Shown here one piece after another: positions 5,090 through 18,155 of a stretch of 44,318 bases of DNA. The translations under genes were made by a program, and so were the position numbers. The stretch is from Opitutia bacterium (GTDB lineage Bacteria > Verrucomicrobiota > Verrucomicrobiae > Opitutales > Opitutaceae). Position 1 is the stretch's first letter, and the number at the start of each line of letters is the position of its first letter. The stretch is taken from assembly GCA_947442255.1 (NCBI GenBank), contig CANEVO010000017.1, positions 1 through 44,318 of the forward strand. The letters are read 5' to 3'. The notes under the pieces were generated by a model. It ran no database searches and was not told the DNA's origin. It saw only the letters and a list, made by a program, of their open reading frames with translations.

Positions 5090-5914
5090 ATGAATCCTCC
5101 CCAACTCTTTTCCCTTGCCGGTCGCAACGCGCTGGTCACCGGCGCCAGCCGCGGAATCGGGCGTGCCCTCGCCGAGGGCCTAGCCGCGCACGGTGCCAAC
5201 GTGGTCTGCGCGGCGCGCACCACCGTGGATCTGGAAATCCTGACGGCCGCGATCCAGGCCGCTGGCGGGCAGGCCAAGGCGTTGAGCATGGATGTCGGAG
5301 ATCGCGATTCGCTGCCAGCGGCGGCCGCGGCGGCGGAGGCCTGTTTCGGGCCGATCGACATTCTTGTGAACAATGCCGGCGTGAATTTTCGCGAGCCGTT
5401 GGCCGAAATCTCGGGCGAGCACTTTGATCGCATCCTGTCGATCAACGTCGAGGGCATGCTGTTCCTGACCCAGGCGGTGGCGAAGGGAATGATGGAGCGG
5501 CGAAGCGGGAAGATCATCAATGTCGGATCGATCACCACCGGCTTCGGTCTTTCGAATCTCGCGGTCTACACGCTGACCAAGGGCGCAGTCGGCCAGTTGA
5601 CCAAGGCGCTCGCGACGGAACTCGGCCGCCACAACATTCAGGTGAACGCACTCTGCCCGGGGTTCATCATGACGCCGATGACCAACAAACTGTGGTCGAT
5701 GCCGCACATGCAGGAGTGGGGGCAGCGGAGAATTCCGTTGGGCCGAATCGCGACGCCCGCCGATCTGGTCGGTTCGGTCGTTTTCCTCGCGTCGGGCGCG
5801 TCCGACTACGTGACCGGCCACTCGCTCTTCGTCGATGGCGGCTTCACCGCTGGCGAGCCCTGGCCGATTCCGAGCGGCGGCGGCAACGTGGCGCCGCCGG
5901 GTGAGATCGCGTAA
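5090..5914 (+). CDS. Short-chain dehydrogenase/reductase (SDR), NAD(P)-dependent
   Basis: A 274-residue classical SDR. The Rossmann glycine motif TGASRGIG is at 17-24, NNAG at 94-97, and the catalytic Ser147, Tyr160 and Lys164 (YTLTK) are in place. The C-terminal half has the usual PGFIMTPMT and a FLASGASDYVTGHSLFVDGG ending. The pattern resembles gluconate 5-dehydrogenase or 3-oxoacyl-ACP reductase-like SDRs that oxidise sugar acids or polyols; the exact substrate is unknown. A short tail (WPIPSGGGNVAPPGEIA) extends beyond the usual end. The ATG at 5090 gives the normal N-terminal distance to the nucleotide motif. It is divergent from the cupin gene, which supports a shared role in breakdown of a sugar acid or aromatic compound. 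Confidence 0.9.
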   Translation: MNPPQLFSLAGRNALVTGASRGIGRALAEGLAAHGANVVCAARTTVDLEILTAAIQAAGGQAKALSMDVGDRDSLPAAAAAAEACFGPIDILVNNAGVNFREPLAEISGEHFDRILSINVEGMLFLTQAVAKGMMERRSGKIINVGSITTGFGLSNLAVYTLTKGAVGQLTKALATELGRHNIQVNALCPGFIMTPMTNKLWSMPHMQEWGQRRIPLGRIATPADLVGSVVFLASGASDYVTGHSLFVDGGFTAGEPWPIPSGGGNVAPPGEIA

Positions 5915-5932
5915 AGTGGCAGTCGCTCCGAC

Positions 5933-6006
5933 GTAGCGCCGGTCTCCGACCGGCGGCAAGAAAGGTGAGGTAAAGCGATCTCCGCCGGTCAGAGACCCGG
6001 CGCTAC
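5933..6006. repeat. Dispersed inverted repeat, family A (copy 1)
   Basis: The left arm begins GTAGCGCCGGTCTCCGACCG and the right arm ends CAGAGACCCGGCGCTAC; the two are near-perfect reverse complements of about 24 bases around a 25-base spacer. A second copy lies at 22696-22775. This copy sits between the convergent ends of the SDR gene and pdhC, so it may fold in both transcripts. It has the look of a REP-type palindromic intergenic element. Confidence 0.75.
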
Positions 6007-6028
6007 CGCGTCCGTGCTTCGTTTCTCT

Positions 6029-7306
6029 TCAGACCAGCAGCAGCGCAGGGCTCTCGAGCAGGGTCTTCAAGGCACCGAGGTATTGCGCACCGACGGCGCC
6101 ATCGACCACGCGGTGATCGCAGGAGAGCGTGAGGATCATCGTCTGGCCGATCACGATCTGGTTGTTTTTCACCACGGGCTTCGTGACGGTCGTGCCGACC
6201 GCGAGGATCGCGGCATTCGGCGGGTTGATGATCGCGCTGAAACGCGGGATGCCCATCATGCCGAGATTCGAAACGCAGAAGGTTCCGCCCGTGAACTGAT
6301 CCGGCTTGAGCTTCTTCTCCTTGGCCTGCTTGCCGAGCAACTTGGCCTCGGTGCTGATCTGAAAAATCGACTTCAGGTGCGCATCGCGGACCACCGGGGT
6401 GATCAGGCCGTCGTCGATCGCGACCGCGAACGCGACATGGGCCGCGCTGAAATAGCGAATCTGCGTCCCTTCCCACGAGCCGTTGACGGCCGGCACCCGG
6501 CGAAGCGCCTCGGCGCTGCCCTTGAGGATGAAATCGTTGACGGAGAGCTTCACGCCCTCGGCCTCAAGGCCGGAGTTGAGCTGCTCGCGCAGGGCCAAGA
6601 GCGGCGCGGCGTCGACTTCGATTTCGACGTAGAAGTGCGGGAGCTGCGTCTTTGACTCGAGCAACCGGCGGGCGATCGCGCCGCGCATGTTGGAAACCTG
6701 GACGGTCTTCTCCTCCTGGATCGGACCCTTGGCCAGCAAGGACGGAGTCGACGGAACGGACTTGCCGCTGACTTTGGTGGCGGGGGAATTCGCCGCCGCG
6801 GCGAGAATGTCGGCCTGCACGATGCGGCCACCGGGGCCGGAACCCGTGACACGGGAGGCATCGACACCCTTCTCGGCGGCGAGTTTGCGGGCGAGCGGGG
6901 AAATCCTCAGGCGGTCGCCGGATGAGGCGACAAGGGCAGACGCGGGTACGGCTACGGCCGGAGTTGGTGTCACGGCGCGGGGCGCGGCGGCGGCCGCGGC
7001 GGCCGGGGCCGTCGTCGGTGCGCTGGCGGGGGCGGCGGGCTTGCAGACGGGCGCGTCGACCTTTTCGCCGGGTTTGCCGATGACGCAGAGCGGGGCGCCG
7101 AGTTCGACTTGGGCGCCCGCGGGGGCGAAAATCCTTAGGATCGTGCCATCGAAGAACGACTCGAGCTCCATCGTGGCCTTGTCGGTTTCGACCTCGGCGA
7201 GCATGTCACCGGACTTCACGACGTCGCCCTCCTGCTTCAGCCACTTGATCAGCGTGCCCACGGTCATGGTGTCGCTGAGCTTCGGCATTTCGATGATGTT
7301 CGGCAT
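6029..7306 (-). CDS. pdhC: Pyruvate dehydrogenase E2, dihydrolipoamide acetyltransferase
   Basis: A 425-residue E2 subunit that transfers the acetyl group from lipoyl to CoA in the cytoplasmic pyruvate dehydrogenase complex. Residues 1-~76 form one lipoyl domain with the modified Lys43 in VETDKATME. An Ala/Pro-rich linker (~85-130) follows. The peripheral subunit-binding domain is at ~132-166 (RISPLARKLAAEKGVDASRV). The catalytic domain ends with DHRVVDG (His398, Asp402), the standard active site. It is the last gene of the pdhA-pdhB-pdhC operon, 59 bases after pdhB. An E3 gene is absent here, so E3 must come from elsewhere. The substrate is called pyruvate from the operon form; a branched-chain 2-oxoacid complex is the alternative. 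Confidence 0.93.
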   Translation of the reverse strand: MPNIIEMPKLSDTMTVGTLIKWLKQEGDVVKSGDMLAEVETDKATMELESFFDGTILRIFAPAGAQVELGAPLCVIGKPGEKVDAPVCKPAAPASAPTTAPAAAAAAAPRAVTPTPAVAVPASALVASSGDRLRISPLARKLAAEKGVDASRVTGSGPGGRIVQADILAAAANSPATKVSGKSVPSTPSLLAKGPIQEEKTVQVSNMRGAIARRLLESKTQLPHFYVEIEVDAAPLLALREQLNSGLEAEGVKLSVNDFILKGSAEALRRVPAVNGSWEGTQIRYFSAAHVAFAVAIDDGLITPVVRDAHLKSIFQISTEAKLLGKQAKEKKLKPDQFTGGTFCVSNLGMMGIPRFSAIINPPNAAILAVGTTVTKPVVKNNQIVIGQTMILTLSCDHRVVDGAVGAQYLGALKTLLESPALLLV

Positions 7307-8455: not shown

Positions 8456-9559
8456 TTAATCGAAGAAGAGACGGCCCCCGGATTTACGCTCGGAGGGATT
8501 GTCGGACTCCCAGTAAACATCCTTCTGGATGTCATCGACGGTCGGGTAGGGGCTGGCCTCGGCGAACTCGGCGGAGGTTTCCGCCTCGGCGCGCGCCTCG
8601 GCGTCGATCTTCTCGATCAAGGCGTCGGTGAGAACGCCCTCGCTCAGAAGTTGGCGCTGGAAGACCTCGATGGGATCCTTCGTCTTCCGGTAGTCCTCGA
8701 TTTCCGACTTGGTGCGATAGGTGTTGTCCGGATCCGCGACCGAGTGCCCGCGATAACGGTACGTATCCACTTCGACTGTGCTCGGCTGGCCATCGCGGGC
8801 CATCTTGAGATGCTTGTCCATGCACGCACGCACCTCGTACACATCGTGGCCGTTGCACTGGCCCCAAGGCATGTCGTAGCCCTCCGCCCGCTTGGCGAGT
8901 TGGCCGGCGGAAGACCGCGCCTGGCTGGTGCCCATGGAGTAGCCGTTGTTCTCAATCACGAACACGACCGGCAGCTTCCAGAGGGAGGCGAGATTGTAGG
9001 CTTCGTGGACCGCGCCCTGGTTGACCGCGCCATCGCCCATGAACGCCATGGCGGCGCCCTTCAGTCCCTTGTACTTGAGTCCGTAGGCCAGGCCAACTCC
9101 GAGTGGAATCTGGCCGCCAACGATGCCATGCCCGCCCCAGAAATTGCGCGACGGATCAAAATAGTGCATCGATCCGCCCTTGCCCTTGGAGCAACCGGTT
9201 GCCCTGCCGTAGAGCTCAGCCATCAAGGGATTTAGCTCCATGCCGACCGCGATGGCGTGCCCATGGTCGCGATACGCGGTAATCACGTGATCATTGGGTC
9301 CCATGAGCGAGCAGCAACCGACGGCGACGGCCTCCTGACCAATATAAAGGTGAAGGAAACCACCGATCTTCTTCGCTTGGTAGGCCCGCAGGCTGCGCTC
9401 TTCGAAGCGCCTAATTCGCACCATTTTACGGTGCAACTCGATCTTCGCTTCGCAGCTCAGCTCCGCATTGATCGGCGCCTGCGCGGCGTCAACCGGCTTG
9501 GCCGGGACGGCGCTGGGCTGGGCTTTCGGTTCGGCAATGGTGCTCGTTTTCTTACTCAC
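8456..9559 (-). CDS. pdhA: Pyruvate dehydrogenase E1 component, alpha subunit
   Basis: A 367-residue E1 alpha subunit. After an Ala/Pro-rich N-terminal extension (~1-32) comes the conserved start of the domain (KMVRIRRFEERSLRAYQAKKIGGFLHLYIGQEA). The thiamine diphosphate motif is present as GDGAVNQGAVHEA through VIENNGYSMGT, and the phosphorylation-loop region YRYRGHSVADPDNTYR is conserved. It forms a heterotetramer with PdhB and commits pyruvate to acetyl-CoA. It is the first gene of the minus-strand pdhABC operon. The 260-base gap upstream, toward the Nudix gene, contains a long inverted repeat of family B. Confidence 0.95.
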   Translation of the reverse strand: MSKKTSTIAEPKAQPSAVPAKPVDAAQAPINAELSCEAKIELHRKMVRIRRFEERSLRAYQAKKIGGFLHLYIGQEAVAVGCCSLMGPNDHVITAYRDHGHAIAVGMELNPLMAELYGRATGCSKGKGGSMHYFDPSRNFWGGHGIVGGQIPLGVGLAYGLKYKGLKGAAMAFMGDGAVNQGAVHEAYNLASLWKLPVVFVIENNGYSMGTSQARSSAGQLAKRAEGYDMPWGQCNGHDVYEVRACMDKHLKMARDGQPSTVEVDTYRYRGHSVADPDNTYRTKSEIEDYRKTKDPIEVFQRQLLSEGVLTDALIEKIDAEARAEAETSAEFAEASPYPTVDDIQKDVYWESDNPSERKSGGRLFFD

Positions 9560-9730
9560 GGAGGAAGGCTCTTTTGATTGAAATGGGAAAGTGTTTGGCG
9601 TCAGCGGGGGAAATCAAGCGTTGAGTGGCCCCTGCCGTTCGCAAGGGAGGAGGTTTTGACCGAATCGCGAACCCGGCAGACATCATTCCAAGCCGGCGAG
9701 GCCGGCGCCGTCGGTAGCCCCGAGTATCAG

Positions 9731-9809
9731 CGAGCGCCAGCGAGTTGATGACGGGTTGGACAGCGGATCTCCGTCTTAAGGCCAGCAGGCCGCCACTCGC
9801 TGGCGCTCG
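9731..9809. repeat. Inverted repeat of dispersed family B
   Basis: CGAGCGCCAGCGAGT at 9731-9745 and its exact reverse complement ACTCGCTGGCGCTCG at 9795-9809 enclose a 49-base spacer. The element lies between the pdhA start and the Nudix stop codon, both on the minus strand. Related single arms are found at 16791-16809, 16839-16852, 17848-17860 and 22104-22124. There is no open frame of interest inside. Confidence 0.75.
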
Positions 9810-9819
9810 TGGTTACGCT

Positions 9820-10332
9820 TCAGGCCTGTGCGGGAGTGATTTCCTCGATCGTGACGTCGATCGGGCGGCCGGGAGCGCAGTCGGCCTTGAGGGCGACGAA
9901 GCGATTCTTGTGCTGATCGAAGATCGGCCAGAGGGCTTTCTTATCGGTCTCGGGGATCGCGAGCGTTTCGATGGCTGCGCGGCTGAAAAACGCGAAGCTC
10001 CCCTCGGAGATTTCCGGCGGGAGCGCGGCGATTGGCCGGCGGCAGTGGAACAGGAACATCAGCCAGTGCGTTTGGCCCTCGTAGGCCTTCTCCGCGATCA
10101 TGGCGAAGAGGTGCAGATCGGAAGCGGCGACCTGGAACCCGGTTTCCTCGTAGGTCTCGCGGACGGCGCACTCGAACGGCGATTCACCGATCTCGGTCTC
10201 GAGCTTGCCGCCAATTGGGCTCCAGACGCCGAGATTCGGCGGCTTGGCGCGCAGCATGAGGAGCAATTCCCCGGCCTCGTTCTCGAGGAAGACGAGGACG
10301 GCGATTTTGTAACCGAGCAGCGCAGTGGCCAT
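9820..10332 (-). CDS. Nudix hydrolase
   Basis: A 170-residue protein with a Nudix fold. The Nudix box spans residues 42-66 and ends in the canonical RETYEETGF with Glu59, Glu62 and Glu63 as metal ligands. The first half has a two-residue insertion: seven instead of five residues lie between Gly42 and Glu50. The family hydrolyses nucleoside diphosphates linked to another group; the substrate cannot be told. The ATG at 10332 starts the first beta strand (ALLGYKIAVLVFLEN). Longer upstream readings would overlap the promoter region of the divergent lipoprotein gene. The stop codon is only about ten bases from the family B repeat arm. Confidence 0.85.
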   Translation of the reverse strand: MATALLGYKIAVLVFLENEAGELLLMLRAKPPNLGVWSPIGGKLETEIGESPFECAVRETYEETGFQVAASDLHLFAMIAEKAYEGQTHWLMFLFHCRRPIAALPPEISEGSFAFFSRAAIETLAIPETDKKALWPIFDQHKNRFVALKADCAPGRPIDVTIEEITPAQA

Positions 10333-10480
10333 TCGCCGACATTTCCGTTCCGGGTGCGGGGGAGCAACCCGGATTCTTCCCGGGCGACGGACCCGCGGCG
10401 GAAATCCGTGCCTCTGCGACCGGCGACCAATTGCGCGTGACCTGCCGCGCCTGACGCATACGTTTGTCGCCTTTCCTCTC

Positions 10481-11278
10481 ATGGCGTTGCTCCCAATCCA
10501 CTTTCCCCGTTCGACCTGTGTGGCGGGCCTGATCGCAGTGGGCGTGTGGTTCGCGGGATGTGCGACGCCGGAGCCACCGACCGACGCGAAGATTCGCCTG
10601 ATGTCCGCCGCGCTCCGCGCGCGGGAGCAAGGCGATCTTTTTGCCGCGCAAAAGGCCGTCGCGGAACTCGCGGTGCTCGCGCCGACCGATGCCAGTGTCC
10701 GGCGGCTGGGCCGCGAAATCGAGACGCAGATCGCGTCGATGAAAGGGGTCGCCAGCGAACTGAAGACGACGCTCGTCACGCCGGCCGCACCCGCGCCCGG
10801 CAGCGTGGAAATAATCGATCTCAACGCCTTCACGTCGACGAAGCCGACCGTGGATTACGCGGCCAAGAAGGTGAGTTTCTTCGCCACGCGCGGGCATGTC
10901 GGCGTTGACGATCGCACCTTGCGGGTCACCTTTTCCGTCGAGCGGGCGGGCGGCACCCGGCTCGTGCTGATTCGCGGCGTGGGTCCGTCGCTGCGGCGAT
11001 TCGGGCAGAAACGCGGATTTCTTTCGGAACCTCAGGTCGAGTTGAGCGACGCGAGCAACCGGGTCATTGGCGTGAACAGCGACTGGCGTAAAAGCGGCGA
11101 TCCGGCCTTCATCTCCGCGATGGTTCAGGCGGGTGGGGGCGTGGCCTTCGATGCGGCGGGCAAGGATGCCGCGATCGTGGCGACGCTGGCACCGGGAGAC
11201 TACTCGGTGCGGTTAAGCGGGGTGCGGGAGAAGACCGGCATCGGGGCGATCGAGATCTATCAGTTCACGCCGCCGTAG
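10481..11278 (+). CDS. Probable lipoprotein with the shared C-terminal beta domain, upstream of the pilus-like operon
   Basis: A 265-residue protein. The N-terminus has a hydrophobic segment (14-26) ending in FAGC, a plausible lipobox with Cys27. Residues ~35-85 look helical (SAALRAREQGDLFAAQKAVAELAVLAPTDASVRRL), similar to a TPR-like helical pair. The C-terminal ~125 residues (from ATRGHVGVDD through LVLIRGVGPSLRRFG, NSDW, LAPGDYSV and GAIEIYQF) match the domain at the C-terminus of the protein at 1-675. The stop is only 50 bases before the PilM-like gene, so it may be the first gene of that operon. Akkermansia also has an extra gene (Amuc_1102) beside its PilM-like gene; whether this one corresponds to it is open. 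Confidence 0.7.
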   Translation: MALLPIHFPRSTCVAGLIAVGVWFAGCATPEPPTDAKIRLMSAALRAREQGDLFAAQKAVAELAVLAPTDASVRRLGREIETQIASMKGVASELKTTLVTPAAPAPGSVEIIDLNAFTSTKPTVDYAAKKVSFFATRGHVGVDDRTLRVTFSVERAGGTRLVLIRGVGPSLRRFGQKRGFLSEPQVELSDASNRVIGVNSDWRKSGDPAFISAMVQAGGGVAFDAAGKDAAIVATLAPGDYSVRLSGVREKTGIGAIEIYQFTPP

Positions 11279-11328
11279 CCGGCGGTGCGGGTCTGGGACG
11301 CCGCCGCGAGACCCCGATTTCCGGGGCA

Positions 11329-13101
11329 ATGCGCTTTTGCGCCACCTGCCGGTCTCGCGATCTTCGGGGAGTGGCCATCTCCTCCGCGCGCCTTCTCGTC
11401 TTCGATCTCGGAACCAGCCACGTGGCCGGGGCGCGTTTCACGTTGCGCGGCGGCGTGGCCCAGCTCGAGGAGTGCGGAATTGAGTTCCACAGCGCGGATC
11501 CGACGCCGGAGCCGCCGTGGGCGCAGCGGGTCGCCGAATCGCTCGATTCCCTGATCGTGGGTCGAGGATGGACGGGCTCCTGCACGATGGTCCTGCCGAG
11601 TCACCTGACGTGGTCGAAGATCGTGACGCCCCCCCCTTGCGAGGCCGACGGTGTCCTGGCGGCGGTGACCGCAGCGGCAAAAGAGCACATCCCGCTTCCG
11701 CTGTCGGAGGTCGTGTGGTGTCACCGAATTCTCTCCCGGACGGATCACGAACTGCAGATTATGCTGGTCGCCGCTCGGCGCGAGGCGGTCGCCGCCGTTT
11801 GCGAAATGGCGAGGCTCCGCGGGCTCGCGGTCGAGCGAATCTTGCCGACGGGGCAGGCGTTGGGGGGGCACTTGGCGATCGGGACACCGGCTAGGCCTGA
11901 CACCGTCATCCTCGCCGATCTCGGGGCGAGGACGACAACCCTGGTGTGGTCGGAGGACACCCATGGCCGGGTCAGGATTTCGGGCGTCGCCGGCAATGCG
12001 ATCACGCACGCCATCAGCGCGGCGTTGGAAATGGATTACGCGGCGGCCGAGGAACTCAAAGTCGCGGTGTTGTCCGGATGCTCCCAGTTGCCGGCGGATG
12101 CCCCGCCACGTCGCGCGGTAGAACAGGCCGTGGTGGACTTCGTGCCCCGAATGACCCGGGAGATCTCCCTCGCGGTTGCTGCGATCCGCCGCCGAAGCCC
12201 GGGTATTGCGGCCTTGAGCGTGGAGATCCTGGGCGGAAATTCCGGCCTGCCCGGCCTCGAAACGGAGCTGACGCGGACGCTGGGGTTGCCCGTCCGTCGC
12301 TGGGTCGCGGCGGCGGACTCGCTGTCCGCGGAAGCGGCTGCGGCTGCGCAGCGGGCGAAGGGGCGCGGCCTGGCGGCGCTCACGGGCGTGGCGACCGCCT
12401 GCCTCTCGGGCAACGCGAGCGACCTTAATCTCCTGCCGGCGGAAGATGCGCAGGCGCAGGCCGCGAAAACGGACCGACGCAGCCAGGTGCTGCCAACGGT
12501 CTTGCTTCTCGGGGCGATGCTGCCGCCGCTGGGATATTTCGGGTGGAGCGCCCGATCCGCACGGGAAGATGCGGCGGAGATCGAGGGTCGACTGATCCCG
12601 GTCCGAGCGCGGCAGGGGCGAATCGATGCGTTACACCGTGAGCGACAGCAGGTGGATATCGATCTGGGCGGGCTCGAGCGGGCGCGGTGGGCACGGACGG
12701 AATGGCTGCGTTTGCTCGGGCAATTGGAGGAGATCGTCGGCTCGATCGAAGGAGTCTGGCTGGAGCGGCTGTCGGTGGACCGCACCGCGCTCCCCGCTGT
12801 GCGGGCGGATCCCGTTCGCGTCGGCCAGAGGAATGTCCCCATCGCCACGGAGCGCGGCGAACACGATGCGGCGGGGCCGGCATCGGAGACACGACTGCGA
12901 TTGGCCGGCCGGGTGGTGGAGTTAAACCTTTCGGAACTCCGCGAGGTCGCGAATAGGGTCGGTCGGGTGAAGGCGCTCTTTCAGCAATTTCAGCTTTCGC
13001 CCTTGGTTGCGCGGATTGAAAGCGAGCGCTTCGATCCGAGTCGCGAAGGCGTCCTCGGCTTCGAAGTCACGCTGGTGCTGCAGCGGGACGTGCTCCGATG
13101 A
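11329..13101 (+). CDS. PilM-PilN fusion: actin-like ATPase joined to a membrane-anchored PilN-like domain
   Basis: A 590-residue protein. Residues ~20-370 form an FtsA/PilM-type actin-like domain: phosphate motif 1 LLVFDLGTSHVAGARF, phosphate motif 2 VILADLGARTTTLVW, and the adenosine motif VEILGGNSGLPGLE. A single hydrophobic segment (~387-406) follows, then a coiled-coil region (~410-455) and a C-terminal PilN-like fold (~475-590) ending in GFEVTLVLQRD. In most type IV pilus systems PilM and PilN are separate proteins that bind each other at the inner membrane, so here they are joined. The start is uncertain: GTG at 11371 would remove 14 residues and begin directly at the ATPase fold. The stop overlaps the next start by four bases (ATGA). 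Confidence 0.8.
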   Translation: MRFCATCRSRDLRGVAISSARLLVFDLGTSHVAGARFTLRGGVAQLEECGIEFHSADPTPEPPWAQRVAESLDSLIVGRGWTGSCTMVLPSHLTWSKIVTPPPCEADGVLAAVTAAAKEHIPLPLSEVVWCHRILSRTDHELQIMLVAARREAVAAVCEMARLRGLAVERILPTGQALGGHLAIGTPARPDTVILADLGARTTTLVWSEDTHGRVRISGVAGNAITHAISAALEMDYAAAEELKVAVLSGCSQLPADAPPRRAVEQAVVDFVPRMTREISLAVAAIRRRSPGIAALSVEILGGNSGLPGLETELTRTLGLPVRRWVAAADSLSAEAAAAAQRAKGRGLAALTGVATACLSGNASDLNLLPAEDAQAQAAKTDRRSQVLPTVLLLGAMLPPLGYFGWSARSAREDAAEIEGRLIPVRARQGRIDALHRERQQVDIDLGGLERARWARTEWLRLLGQLEEIVGSIEGVWLERLSVDRTALPAVRADPVRVGQRNVPIATERGEHDAAGPASETRLRLAGRVVELNLSELREVANRVGRVKALFQQFQLSPLVARIESERFDPSREGVLGFEVTLVLQRDVLR

Positions 13102-14123
13102 AAGCGCAGGCCGATTCTCATTCAATGAACGCGCCGCGCATCCCCCGCTGGAGTCTTTTCGTGCTCCTCATTGTCGTGGGTGGCGGCGAGGGCGCGCTGT
13201 TGTGGCAATGGCGGCAGGAGGGCTGGCGGGCGGCCGCGTTGCTCGCCGCGCGGCAGGCCGAGGCAGATCAGTGGCAGCGTCGGCAGTCGGTGCCGACGGT
13301 GACACACGAGGCCGCGATCGCTGATGACCTGGCCACGCGACGGACGAGGCTGGCGTGGCTGGGAGTCGAATTGATGGGGAAGGGAGAAGCGTCGTCGGTT
13401 GCGGGCGAAGCGGACGCCCCGGCGGAGCGCACGGACGTGTTCTTCGCGATCGCCGCGATGCGCGATCACCTGAAGGCGCTTGCTCAGGTTCGCGGAGTGC
13501 GCCTCGACGTCCACGCCGCCGACTTTGGATTTGGCGCGTTCGCCAGCGAGGCGCCCACCGTCGATCAGCTGGAGAACGTGAATCGGCAGCGCGCCGTGCT
13601 GCGTGACCTAATCGAAGCCCTCCTGGAGTCGGGTCCACGGGCGGTTCTTTCGATCCAGCGTGAAACGGAAGTCGCAGCCGCCCGCTCCCCTGAATTCCCG
13701 ATGAACGTGATTCCCTCCGGCGTCAGAAAGAGTGGCGGCGGGCGAGGGATCGAACGCGGGGACTCTTTCGCGCTGGACCGCGGAGTGAGCGTGGCGGTGC
13801 CGGGTTTGCTTGAGACCCTCGGATTTCGCCTCGTGTTCTGCGGCGACACCGAAGTTCTGCGGGTCTTTCTGAATCGGGTGTCGCACCACGGGCGGACCTT
13901 GGTGATTCGCGACGTGGAAGTCTCCCTCGCCAGCGCGGCCGAGGCCGGTGCGTCGCCGGCTACAAGCGGCGACCGGAATCTAGCGGCGAAGCCCGCAGCT
14001 CCACTTGTCACGCGTCCGCTTTCGCGGTTCACGGTGACGATCGAGTCGATAGAACGGGTGGCCCCGGATCATCGAGGCCGGCGGCCCACGCCGCCGGTTG
14101 CGTCCACGGGGGCCGGATCATGA
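13098..14123 (+). CDS. Amuc_1100-like (PilO-position) membrane-anchored pilus cluster protein
   Basis: A 341-residue protein with a short cytoplasmic N-terminus, one membrane helix (~19-40, WSLFVLLIVVGGGEGALLW) and a large periplasmic part. The helical region (~42-90) is followed by two alpha/beta units. The first holds FGFGAFASEAPTVDQLENV, which lines up with GFQVYSTQAPSVQ as I recall it from Akkermansia Amuc_1100. The second holds FRLVFCGDTEVLRVFLNRV, which lines up with the LEIAFQGDRESVLKAMNAI region of the same protein. Amuc_1100 has a PilO-like arrangement. The C-terminus is Pro/Ala-rich and probably disordered. The ATG at 13098 overlaps the previous stop; an internal ATG at 13125 is an alternative. 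It also overlaps the next gene by ATGA. Confidence 0.75.
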   Translation: MKAQADSHSMNAPRIPRWSLFVLLIVVGGGEGALLWQWRQEGWRAAALLAARQAEADQWQRRQSVPTVTHEAAIADDLATRRTRLAWLGVELMGKGEASSVAGEADAPAERTDVFFAIAAMRDHLKALAQVRGVRLDVHAADFGFGAFASEAPTVDQLENVNRQRAVLRDLIEALLESGPRAVLSIQRETEVAAARSPEFPMNVIPSGVRKSGGGRGIERGDSFALDRGVSVAVPGLLETLGFRLVFCGDTEVLRVFLNRVSHHGRTLVIRDVEVSLASAAEAGASPATSGDRNLAAKPAAPLVTRPLSRFTVTIESIERVAPDHRGRRPTPPVASTGAGS

Positions 14124-14776
14124 TCGGGGAAAAGCCGGTCCTGCTTTGTGTCGCGGCTGGGCTGGCCGGCTTGTCCGTGTTTGCCTTTGGTTGGCTGGGT
14201 TGGCGGCGGGAGAACGCGCGGCGAGCCTTGAGTCTGGACTTGGTTCTGAGGGAAAAGACCGTGATCACGAGGCCGTTGGATCGAGGAGAGGATCGCCTGT
14301 CGGTCTGGTCATCTCGGTCGAGTGCTGTCGAGGAGCGCTTCGATCTCTTCACGGCGCCGGACCTCTGGTTCGATTCCCATGCGAAGAGCTACTCCGTTCG
14401 TTCCCTCCCGGAGGACGCGGACGAGCGCGTGGCCGACAAAGCCGGGTTGGCGTTGGCGGAGATAGCGCCCCGGCCGTATCGGATCCGGCTGATTGGGCAC
14501 CAAGGCGGGCCGGGTGCGTGGCGGGGATGTTTCGTCGACGATGAGACGGGTGAGATGGCGAGCGCGGGGGTGGGCGGACTTCAGCCGCTGCGCCTCGAGG
14601 TGCTTCGTCTCGATCTGCAGCGCGCGAAGGTAGACGCCACCGATACCATTCAATTTCGAAAAGAGGCCGTCGCGGTGGTGCGTGATTTCGACTCGGGTCG
14701 GGAGATTACGCTGCGCGAAGGCGAGGGGGTCGCGCGGGAAGAGTCGGACGTTGGAGCAGCCGGAGAGTCCCGATGA
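14120..14776 (+). CDS. Small membrane-anchored pilus cluster protein (PilP / Amuc_1099 position)
   Basis: A 218-residue protein with an N-terminal membrane helix (~6-28, VLLCVAAGLAGLSVFAFGWLGW) and a periplasmic part of ~190 residues. It contains LWFDSHAKSYSVR, a strand-rich segment PYRIRLIGHQGGPGAWRGCFVDDETGE and, near the end, FDSGREITLREGEG. No catalytic motif is visible. PilP usually links the inner-membrane PilNO pair to the secretin; this gene sits exactly in that position, between the PilO-like and secretin genes, and at the place of Amuc_1099 in Akkermansia. Sequence similarity to PilP is not evident by eye, so the role is inferred from position. Both ends overlap neighbours by four bases (ATGA), indicating translational coupling. 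Confidence 0.65.
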   Translation: MIGEKPVLLCVAAGLAGLSVFAFGWLGWRRENARRALSLDLVLREKTVITRPLDRGEDRLSVWSSRSSAVEERFDLFTAPDLWFDSHAKSYSVRSLPEDADERVADKAGLALAEIAPRPYRIRLIGHQGGPGAWRGCFVDDETGEMASAGVGGLQPLRLEVLRLDLQRAKVDATDTIQFRKEAVAVVRDFDSGREITLREGEGVAREESDVGAAGESR

Positions 14777-16725
14777 ACGATTGCGTGAACGGACTGACCA
14801 GAGTGCTCGCGAAGACCAGCCAGGCCATCGGCCAGGCGGTCGCGCTGCTCGCGCTCATGGCGGGGCACGGACGAGCTGACGAGAATCGGAACCGCGTGCC
14901 GGACGTTCGCGAAGGGGAAGAGCTGCACGAACAACCTCGCGGTGTTGTGCCGCGCGAGATGACGCGGGCGAAACTGTTGCAGGAGGTGGAACAGGGCTGG
15001 CAGCGACCGTCGAACCCGGTGACCACGGATCCCGATGTTTTGGTCTCCGACGCGACCGCGACTCTGCGGCGCAAGTTGAACGACATTGTGCTGCCGCAGG
15101 TGAGTTTCACGCGCGCCGAGATTGGGCAGGTGGTCGGCGCGCTGAGTTCGATTTCGCAGGAGTTCGATCCGGCCAGCGATGGGGTGAAGGGCATCAACGT
15201 CGTGCTGCTCGATCCGGAAAACCGCCGTCCGCAGGTCACGCTGGTGCTTCGGCAGGCGAGCCTGAAGCGTGTGCTCGATTTTGTGACTGCGAGCATTGGC
15301 TACGAGTACGAGGTGCAGGTCGACGCGATTGTCGTTCGGCCGGGAGGCGAAGCGCGCCCGCTGGATACCGACTTCTTTCCGGTGACGCGGGCCACTGTCT
15401 TGCGCATGATGGGAGGTTCCGGATCGGCAGTCGGCGGGCGGGAAACGGGGCGCCGCGAGCCGGGCGAGCGTGCTGGCGGAGCCAATGAAGCGGCGGCGTT
15501 GCAGGCCTTTCTTCAGCAGGCGGGCGTGAGCTTCGCCGGGGAGGGCGCGTCGCTGGCCTATGATGGGGCGGCGCTGATCGTCACCCAGACCGCGCGCAAC
15601 CTGCAACGGATTCGAAATATTGTTTCTCGTTACCGCGAAGTCCGGCAGGTGGAGATCGAGGCCAAGTTCATGGAGGTGCAGGAAGGAGCGTTGGAGGAAC
15701 TCGGCGTGCAATGGAACCTCACCCGGCGCGGTGTCCCGCGACTCGATCCCGTCACCGGTTCGCCCTTGGTCGACGCCCACGGGCGGCAGATCTTCGATCC
15801 GCAGGAGAGCTACACGACGAGTGGCATCAACCGATCGCTGGCGGCAGGGTTTCCCAGCAGCACGAACAATCCCGCGATCACGATCGACGCGGCGGCGAGT
15901 GCCGGTGCGATTATCGACGGGGTCGCGCTGCCCGGTACCGCGGCAGAGAGTCGCGTCATTCCCGTCGCGCCGCCGGGCATTCCCGGCAGCGTGGCGCTTG
16001 GCAATGCCGCCTCGGCGCTGGGCACGATCGCGGGCTTCGTGGGTGAGTTCGATGTGAGTGCCGTGATTCGGGCGCTGGCTCAGAAGCAGGGCACGGATCT
16101 CCTGAGTTCGCCGCGGATCACGGTGCTGTCGGGCAATCTCGCGACCATCACGGTGGCGCAGGAGATGCGGTACCCGCAGAGCTATGGGGAAATCCAGAGC
16201 CAGGTGGGATCGGGCAGCGGCAACGGCACGGGAATCAGCGCGGCCGGCGTGACCGTCACCGCCGGAACGCCGCAGGATTTCACCACGCGCAACATCGGCG
16301 TGGAACTGAAGGTCACGCCGACCGTGGAGGACGACGATCGCGCCATCAGCCTCGACCTGAACCCGAGGGTCACGGAGTTCGAGGGTTTCGTCGAATACGG
16401 CGGGCCGAGCATCGCCATTTCGTCAGGGGTCACCGTCAAAGTTCCCCCGGGGTTCTATCAACCGATCTTCTCGGTGCGCGACATCTCGACGCGGGTGACG
16501 ATCTGGGATGGCGCGACGCTCGTGATGGGTGGGTTGACGCGCGAGGAGGTCAAGAAGGTCGACGACAAGGTGCCGTTCCTTGGTGATCTGCCGCTGCTCG
16601 GGCGGTTCTTCCGATCGAAGGCCGAGAGCGCGCAGAAGCGAAACCTCCTAATCTTCGTCACGGCGAATCTCGTGAGCCCGGGTGGATCGCCCCTGCGTCG
16701 TACGTCCCCGGTGGCGGATCGATGA
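14773..16725 (+). CDS. Secretin (GspD/PilQ family), Amuc_1098-like
   Basis: A 650-residue outer-membrane secretin. The N-terminus (~10-35) is a probable signal peptide. Residues ~95-195 form an N0/STN-like domain (GINVVLLDPENRRPQVTLVL), and ~235-310 an N3-like domain (LAYDGAALIVTQTARNLQRI). The secretin domain runs from ~420 to 645, with DLLSSPRITVLSGNLATITV, a Gly/Ser-rich insertion, VGVELKVTPTVE-type strands and the signature VPFLGDLPLLGRFF near residue 600. Such proteins form a multimeric outer-membrane channel for pili or type II export. It is the last gene of the coupled operon. No pilotin, assembly ATPase, platform protein or prepilin gene is in the window, so those parts must be elsewhere if the machine is a full pilus. 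Confidence 0.92.
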   Translation: MNDCVNGLTRVLAKTSQAIGQAVALLALMAGHGRADENRNRVPDVREGEELHEQPRGVVPREMTRAKLLQEVEQGWQRPSNPVTTDPDVLVSDATATLRRKLNDIVLPQVSFTRAEIGQVVGALSSISQEFDPASDGVKGINVVLLDPENRRPQVTLVLRQASLKRVLDFVTASIGYEYEVQVDAIVVRPGGEARPLDTDFFPVTRATVLRMMGGSGSAVGGRETGRREPGERAGGANEAAALQAFLQQAGVSFAGEGASLAYDGAALIVTQTARNLQRIRNIVSRYREVRQVEIEAKFMEVQEGALEELGVQWNLTRRGVPRLDPVTGSPLVDAHGRQIFDPQESYTTSGINRSLAAGFPSSTNNPAITIDAAASAGAIIDGVALPGTAAESRVIPVAPPGIPGSVALGNAASALGTIAGFVGEFDVSAVIRALAQKQGTDLLSSPRITVLSGNLATITVAQEMRYPQSYGEIQSQVGSGSGNGTGISAAGVTVTAGTPQDFTTRNIGVELKVTPTVEDDDRAISLDLNPRVTEFEGFVEYGGPSIAISSGVTVKVPPGFYQPIFSVRDISTRVTIWDGATLVMGGLTREEVKKVDDKVPFLGDLPLLGRFFRSKAESAQKRNLLIFVTANLVSPGGSPLRRTSPVADR

Positions 16726-16790
16726 TGCCCGCTGCGAACTGAACCGGGCTGACGGCGACCGGGGGGGGGGCAATGGCCTTCTGTGGCTGC

Positions 16791-16852
16791 GAGCGTGAGC
16801 GAGTGGCGGCCGCTCGCGGCCACGGCGCCGGTCGATTCTTCGCTGGCGCTCC
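16791..16852. repeat. Family B repeat, degenerate inverted copy
   Basis: GAGCGTGAGCGAGTGGCGG (16791-16809) and TTCGCTGGCGCTCC (16839-16852) are arms related to the perfect pair at 9731-9809. The copy lies between the secretin gene and the exonuclease gene, immediately after a run of ten G (16761-16770). An open frame crosses it upstream of the exonuclease start, but the resulting peptide has no family similarity. Confidence 0.55.
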
Positions 16853-17810: not shown

Positions 17811-18155
17811 AGGGCGTCCGAGAATCTCACCCGCGGCGCGGTTGTAGCCACGAGCGCCAGCTCCGTGCATTCTGTGCCTTCGGTGGTTTAAACATCCCCG
17901 TGTTTAACCACCGAGTGCACCGAGTGGATCCGTTGCTCTAAAAAAGGAGCAACGGGAAGACCGGGAAGTGAGGTTGGGCCGATTCCTGGCTTTCTGGATT
18001 CCGGCTCAACTCCGGCTGGCTCGATCGAGGTGGAGAATCGAGTCATAAACTTTTTCATTGCTCCGCTCGATGAAGTCCCGCTGCTCACGCCGCGGGCCAC
18101 AAAGTTCGCTTTTTCCCGATTTGCTACTGCGACGCTCCGGCTTAGCAAGCCCCGC
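17811..18155. other. Intergenic region with two hairpins and repeat fragments
   Basis: No gene seen in these 345 bases between the convergent exonuclease and response-regulator genes. It holds a family B arm (CCACGAGCGCCAG, 17848-17860). An inverted repeat follows, with arms TCGGTGGTTTAAACA (17880-17894) and TGTTTAACCACCGA (17901-17914). A second hairpin has arms CGTTGCTC (17931-17938) and GAGCAACG (17947-17954). Neither hairpin has a T-run right after it on either strand, but they may still help end transcription from both sides. The remainder shows nothing I can name. Confidence 0.6.

Follow-up and report, generated by a model that had tools for sequence, protein, structure and literature searches.

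What does an operon do that resembles the alignment and secretin part of a type IV pilus machine and has no motor or pilin gene beside it? The question is raised by a stretch of 44,318 nucleotides from an Opitutia bacterium (assembly GCA_947442255.1, contig CANEVO010000017.1), called the window below. Here four open reading frames (ORFs), named M (11329-13101), O (13098-14123), P (14120-14776) and Q (14773-16725), run head to tail on the forward strand, and all three junctions are ATGA overlaps, as an earlier note made from the letters alone had described them. The operon probably encodes, in a slimmed form, the alignment and secretin module of a machine like the type IV pilus and akin to MUL2 of Akkermansia, with a putative pilotin-like partner encoded by an upstream gene, up (10481-11278, forward strand), which was absent from the earlier four-gene account and belongs with the operon.

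How close is the likeness to Akkermansia? The four genes are relatives of Amuc_1101, Amuc_1100, Amuc_1099 and Amuc_1098, that is, of the MUL2 pilus-like locus and its secretin, and the equivalence claimed by the earlier note stands. M (590 residues) matches the NCBIfam model of the Amuc_1101 family at E 6e-43; its matches to PF11104 (E 1.8e-7) and to the Thermus PilM structure 2ych (E 1.9e-13) agree with its description as a PilM-like ATPase with an actin-like fold. O (341 residues) matches the Amuc_1100 family NF038287 at E 6e-7. As a single query it found no solved relative, only one chance-level match, but a profile of 16 O proteins finds the solved Amuc_1100 structure 6kny at E 2.3e-9. Q (650 residues) is an Amuc_1098-type secretin, with E 8e-105 to NF042912 and 1.9e-35 to PF00263. 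Homologues of Amuc_1101, Amuc_1100 and Amuc_1098 are present in that order on one strand, with bit scores far below the curated equivalog cut-offs (147 against 650 for M, 29 against 180 for O and 352 against 750 for Q). The structural tie proposed for the proteins of 13098-14776 is found in this O profile and, for P, in the PilP fold of a full-length relative. PilM, secretin and PilP-type parts of a type IV pilus machine are all present, the PilP fold being incomplete in the P of the window.

The C-terminal part of M had been read as PilN-like, and this has some support. A motif NLLP (12427-12438, residues 367-370, forward strand) is conserved, its L368 and P370 being invariant across 18 aligned sequences, while a match to the PilN model is absent up to E 1. 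The motif resembles the PilM-binding N-terminus of PilN, here within a fused protein. An alternative start of M is a GTG at 11371. As a side observation, the actin-like domain in the M of locus L108 (6296-8008; contig C67 of the relative G005) is short of some 44 residues kept in relatives, and PF11104 fails to detect M in G005.

Is the gene order more than a local accident? The named loci surveyed are the best 80 of 440 relatives, nearly all from Opitutae or Verrucomicrobia assemblies. Where more than 4.2 kb lies upstream of Q, the order M-O-P-Q is found in 55 of 56 loci, O-P fusions being scored as in order, so that the synteny which the earlier note wished to see checked is indeed there. 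The sole exception is L154, from Cephaloticoccus primus, where M, O and P were not found in the 9.8 kb upstream of Q. In L122, L145, L148, L150, L153 and L172 the O and P matches lie within one ORF, and these are likely O-P fusions.

It is P that first sets the window apart. Its 218 residues cover positions 4-224 of a model of 288, and each of the 72 P ORFs in the named loci extends to position 256 or further; what is missing is about 65 C-terminal residues, the last strands of the PilP fold. This short P is a conserved form: three homologues have exactly 218 residues, at 96, 70 and 62% identity. A genus-wide search with it through 27 genomes matched 22 (27-35% identity), none of them short by frame length; the contig of G001, the closest genome compared, ends before P, so that its form lies outside this comparison. 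A frameshift was considered as the cause and dropped, as other frames hold no C-terminal remnant (best tblastn E 0.23) and the three homologues have equal length. On its own the window P has no match in Pfam or in the NCBIfam Amuc models, its profile found no relative among solved structures, and the tie to Amuc_1099 is weak (one of 15 relatives matches NF042425, E 0.005). The position between O and Q agrees with the Amuc_1099 place, and so does the fold: the modelled structure of a full-length relative, L117, standing in for the window P, folds like PilP in VIA-align.

Q is short as well. It spans only positions 210-804 of its family, and the N-terminal tetratricopeptide repeat (TPR) extension is absent; the long secretins of relatives start with such a TPR-like module. 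Q is 63-71% identical to seven same-genus sequences and 39-53% to eight others, and an Amuc_1098-type secretin above 170 bits is found in 25 of 29 related genomes, the exceptions being G001, G006, G016 and G023. A side observation concerns an Oleiharenicola locus (L165), where a repeat protein, Sel1-like by eye (5222-6340), lies directly upstream of M and Q is also without the TPR part.

Where, then, has the TPR module gone? The gene up, of 265 residues from the ATG at 10481, ends 50 bases before M on the same strand, and it unites two pieces missing from their usual places in the window. Its TPR-like module (10580-10753, forward strand) has its homologue at the N-terminal end of the relatives' long secretins: the N-terminal part of up matches residues 17-131 of the L034 secretin by phmmer at E 4e-15, and the module scores 70.6 bits with a profile built from 32 secretin N-termini. 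Its C-terminal domain D (10856-11269, forward strand) is homologous to the last domains of a giant protein encoded directly downstream of the relatives' secretin. The predicted structure (mean predicted local distance difference test score 77) has helices at 34-96 and a beta-sandwich at about 127-264, numbered from 10478; a Pfam scan of up found no family. The protein has a signal peptide with the lipobox-like sequence FAGC and may be anchored by lipid. There are 47 homologues, the first 24 of which cover 55-100% of up; identity is 83% in G005, and only one residue is changed in G001 (six synonymous codon changes and one non-synonymous). Since both up and the short P have homologues of their own, the layout is not an assembly slip. 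Among the named loci, L108 shares it with a P that extends to model position 279, and in L140 and L141 a free TPR protein that has no D is encoded upstream of M. The idea that the free TPR gene arose twice, once for the window and L108 and once for L140 and L141, was considered and not retained: a quick tree, which groups some long branches together, separates the pairs and places the window and L108 within a clade of 34 rows mostly having both parts, but a single clade is not rejected (approximately unbiased test, p 0.114). Matches to up, nearly all of them to domain D (LVRGIGP type), number from at least 47 to at least 116 in 17 of the 19 same-genus genomes and at least 16 each in the other two, G001 and G005.

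Two more parts are gone from the locus. An Amuc_1102-type pilin-like gene occurs in 19 of the 29 related genomes, mostly directly before M; of the 54 named loci that could be assessed, 33 have one. Its family was assigned by NF042424 (three of 13 members) and weakly by the structure 7DSZ (0.023). Its profile finds nothing among the window ORFs at E 10, and no homologue was found in G001, G003 or G005. An ORF of at least 1000 residues follows Q in 19 of the 44 named loci with more than 7 kb downstream, and 16 of these 19 bear D (1735-3062 residues, or a cut one); two that were read are Ig-repeat-like by eye. The window has no such giant protein downstream of Q. That Amuc_1102 and the TPR part of the secretin are lost in firm association was considered and dropped. 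The raw table of the 54 loci and the window (26 of the 80 loci, with M undetected or too close to an edge, being excluded) has 30 with both, three with Amuc_1102 only, six with TPR only and 16 with neither (Fisher p 1.5e-6), but the tree shows three independent pairs, 2.5 of them concordant on average (p 0.25).

Who would drive such a machine? The lack of motor and pilin genes reported by the earlier note is real within the window: nine PilB, PilT, PilC, type II secretion E/F and pilin queries from relatives gave nothing by tblastn at E 0.01, five ORFs of more than 500 residues from the ATPase region of G008 gave nothing by phmmer at E 10, the prepilin-type motif is not in any window ORF of at least 60 residues, and Pfam families of motors or pilins were not seen in 26 chosen ORFs. 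What finds no support is the idea that this lack is distinctive. A motor-free neighbourhood is the usual state: relatives too encode pilB, pilT and pilC elsewhere, and 19 of 29 keep the Amuc_1102-type gene. A T2SSE-family match is found in all 29 (above the cut-off in 28); relatives have ATPases and PilC, with a prepilin peptidase in six of seven. Named by family matches, resemblance and position, the motor genes of G008 form a group about 21-26 kb downstream of Q, with pilT flanked by PilB-type ATPases and a PilC match, and in G029 a row of ATPase, pilT, ATPase and PilC-like gene lies on a different contig from Q. Orthologues of the G008 pilT, at 89-99% identity, occur in five of nine genomes (G003, G005, G006, G016 and G018), and none at this level was found in G001, G023, G025 or G028. 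The best PilM_2 match is the M of such an operon in 20 of the 24 genomes having one (18 by a contig shared with Q, G001 by its place beside O and G019 beside its Amuc_1102-type gene; of the remainder, G002 is ambiguous and G022, G023 and G028 have only weak matches). With the best PilM mostly in the operon and the motors elsewhere, the module appears to serve the genus as the alignment complex of motors encoded at a distance.

From these parts a mechanism can be sketched. M would join a cytoplasmic PilM-like part to a PilN-like membrane part, O would be the PilO/Amuc_1100 part, P the PilP-like periplasmic link and Q the outer-membrane channel, with motors and pilins supplied from other loci. 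In the lineage of the window this set is reduced: the locus has neither an Amuc_1102-like subunit nor the giant protein, the PilP domain of P is cut short, and the TPR module that relatives have at the N-terminus of the secretin is carried by a separate lipoprotein-like protein encoded at the head of the operon. As the putative split-off pilotin-like part of the secretin, up would most likely help the secretin to reach the outer membrane or to assemble there, and its beta-sandwich may add a surface or docking part. In a bolder version, which we find doubtful, the TPR module would be a mobile unit, placed either at the N-terminus of the secretin itself or in a free lipoprotein at the Amuc_1102 position: a built-in pilotin, split off by natural fission, would then have assumed the pilotin job and also, by way of the beta-sandwich shared with giant exported proteins, the role of the lost Amuc_1102, and the pilus machine would do without the MUL2 subunit it normally has.

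Several points weigh against the pilus-like reading. G001, 98% identical over window positions 9183-13762 (4.6 kb, its contig ending within O), yields no pilT orthologue, only paralogues of at most 44%, a short 46% piece being of the PilB type; the species may lack the motor set, or this draft (94% complete, 580 contigs) may be incomplete. The same comparison gives modest constraint, with ratios of non-synonymous to synonymous change of 0.45 for M and 0.43 for O from few changes. G006 and G016 have the pilT orthologue, and O, a PilM_2 match and a strong Amuc_1098-type Q were not found in them, so that in these drafts the motor does not go strictly with the module. In G011 the TPR-D gene is on contig C68 and the operon on C151, and the up-like gene is thus not tied to the operon there. 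Foldseek alone is not significant for P (PilP at rank 46, E 0.57), and a truncated P might fail to reach the secretin. Finally, the helical part of up is shorter than in known TPR pilotins.

Could the module have stopped making pili, and be a secretin-based surface or export complex with its lipoprotein? The missing Amuc_1102 homologue in the window and three relatives, the missing pilT orthologue in G001, a P kept at 218 residues without part of its PilP domain and the deletion in the M of L108 would all suit such a motor-less complex. It is unlikely nonetheless, since G005, the sister with the same layout, retains a pilT orthologue with PilB and PilC matches beside it, further ATPases of the PilB/PilT family occur in G001 together with PilC-type proteins and a prepilin peptidase, and draft genomes can miss genes. 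The same L108 deletion, the loss of several parts and the ratios of about 0.45 for M and O could also mean drift in an operon on its way out. But every frame is open and the overlaps are exact, Q holds its identity across seven genus relatives, the short P keeps one length down to 62%, and up differs from G001 by a single residue, all of which makes decay quite improbable.

The domain D itself suggests another reading, that of a type II secretion-like system that exports D-domain proteins, numerous in the genus. A D-domain protein follows Q in 16 of the 44 loci with enough room downstream, and up couples the secretin TPR module with D; yet G016 and G006, with at least 108 and at least 63 matches to up, mostly D, are those in which a strong Amuc_1098-type Q was not found, and among nine other families in which Q is kept, such matches number 0-2 in eight and at least 11 in one. 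Such a system is highly improbable here, and the idea that D is a sorting tag for this secretin is weakened by the same genomes and families. The pilus-like alignment and secretin module, slimmed and with its putative pilotin-like partner, remains the reading preferred.

Outside the operon, two repeats deserve a word. The intergenic stretch 17845-18154, between an exonuclease gene and a response regulator, belongs to a dispersed repeat family, with at least about 40 matches in G001 and partial ones in G005. A 28-base motif at 16784-16811 has its first 24 bases exactly eight times in 20 kb of contig C63 of G005 (L107), some copies lying about 300 bases apart within longer repeated units.

How new is all this? 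The earlier note spoke of a poorly described system, and this is only partly true. A recent paper, PMC13174399, treats the locus as MUL2, which comprises Amuc_1099-1102 beside a secretin and is reported to be often conserved in Verrucomicrobiales and less so in Chthoniobacterales; PMC5332112 and PMC10688800 present a pili-like cluster of Akkermansia, and PMC12418764 counts pili genes among the MUL genes. No paper on a split TPR protein or on a slimmed Opitutae form was found in the open-licence literature searched. The kind of locus is already known, and the window copy, with its separate TPR protein, is an Akkermansia-type module made unusual by its losses. Work on Amuc_1100 and its neighbours has been directed at host signalling, yet their machine is unclear. 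A lineage in which the TPR part of the secretin is naturally separate offers a clean way to test a pilotin role, and the absence of Amuc_1102, together with the shortening of P, shows which pieces the core module can spare.

It remains to set the operon beside the systems it resembles. With PilMNOPQ it shares the PilM family, the NLLP motif, the PilP fold, the secretin and the order; it differs in that M and N are fused, the motors do not adjoin, O is linked through Amuc_1100 only and P through the fold of a relative only. Secretins have TPR pilotins such as PilF, PilW, Tgl and TadD. Like these, up is lipoprotein-like, has a TPR-like part and goes with a secretin operon, although its helical part is shorter and it carries an extra beta-sandwich. 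In comparison with Amuc_1098-1102, the window has no Amuc_1102 next to M and no TPR part in the secretin, its P is short, and a TPR-D lipoprotein-like gene occupies the Amuc_1102 place. The common ground is nevertheless broad: relatives of Amuc_1101, Amuc_1100 and Amuc_1098 stand in equal order, with a PilP-like protein in the place of Amuc_1099, and relatives of the window keep the Amuc_1102-type gene too.
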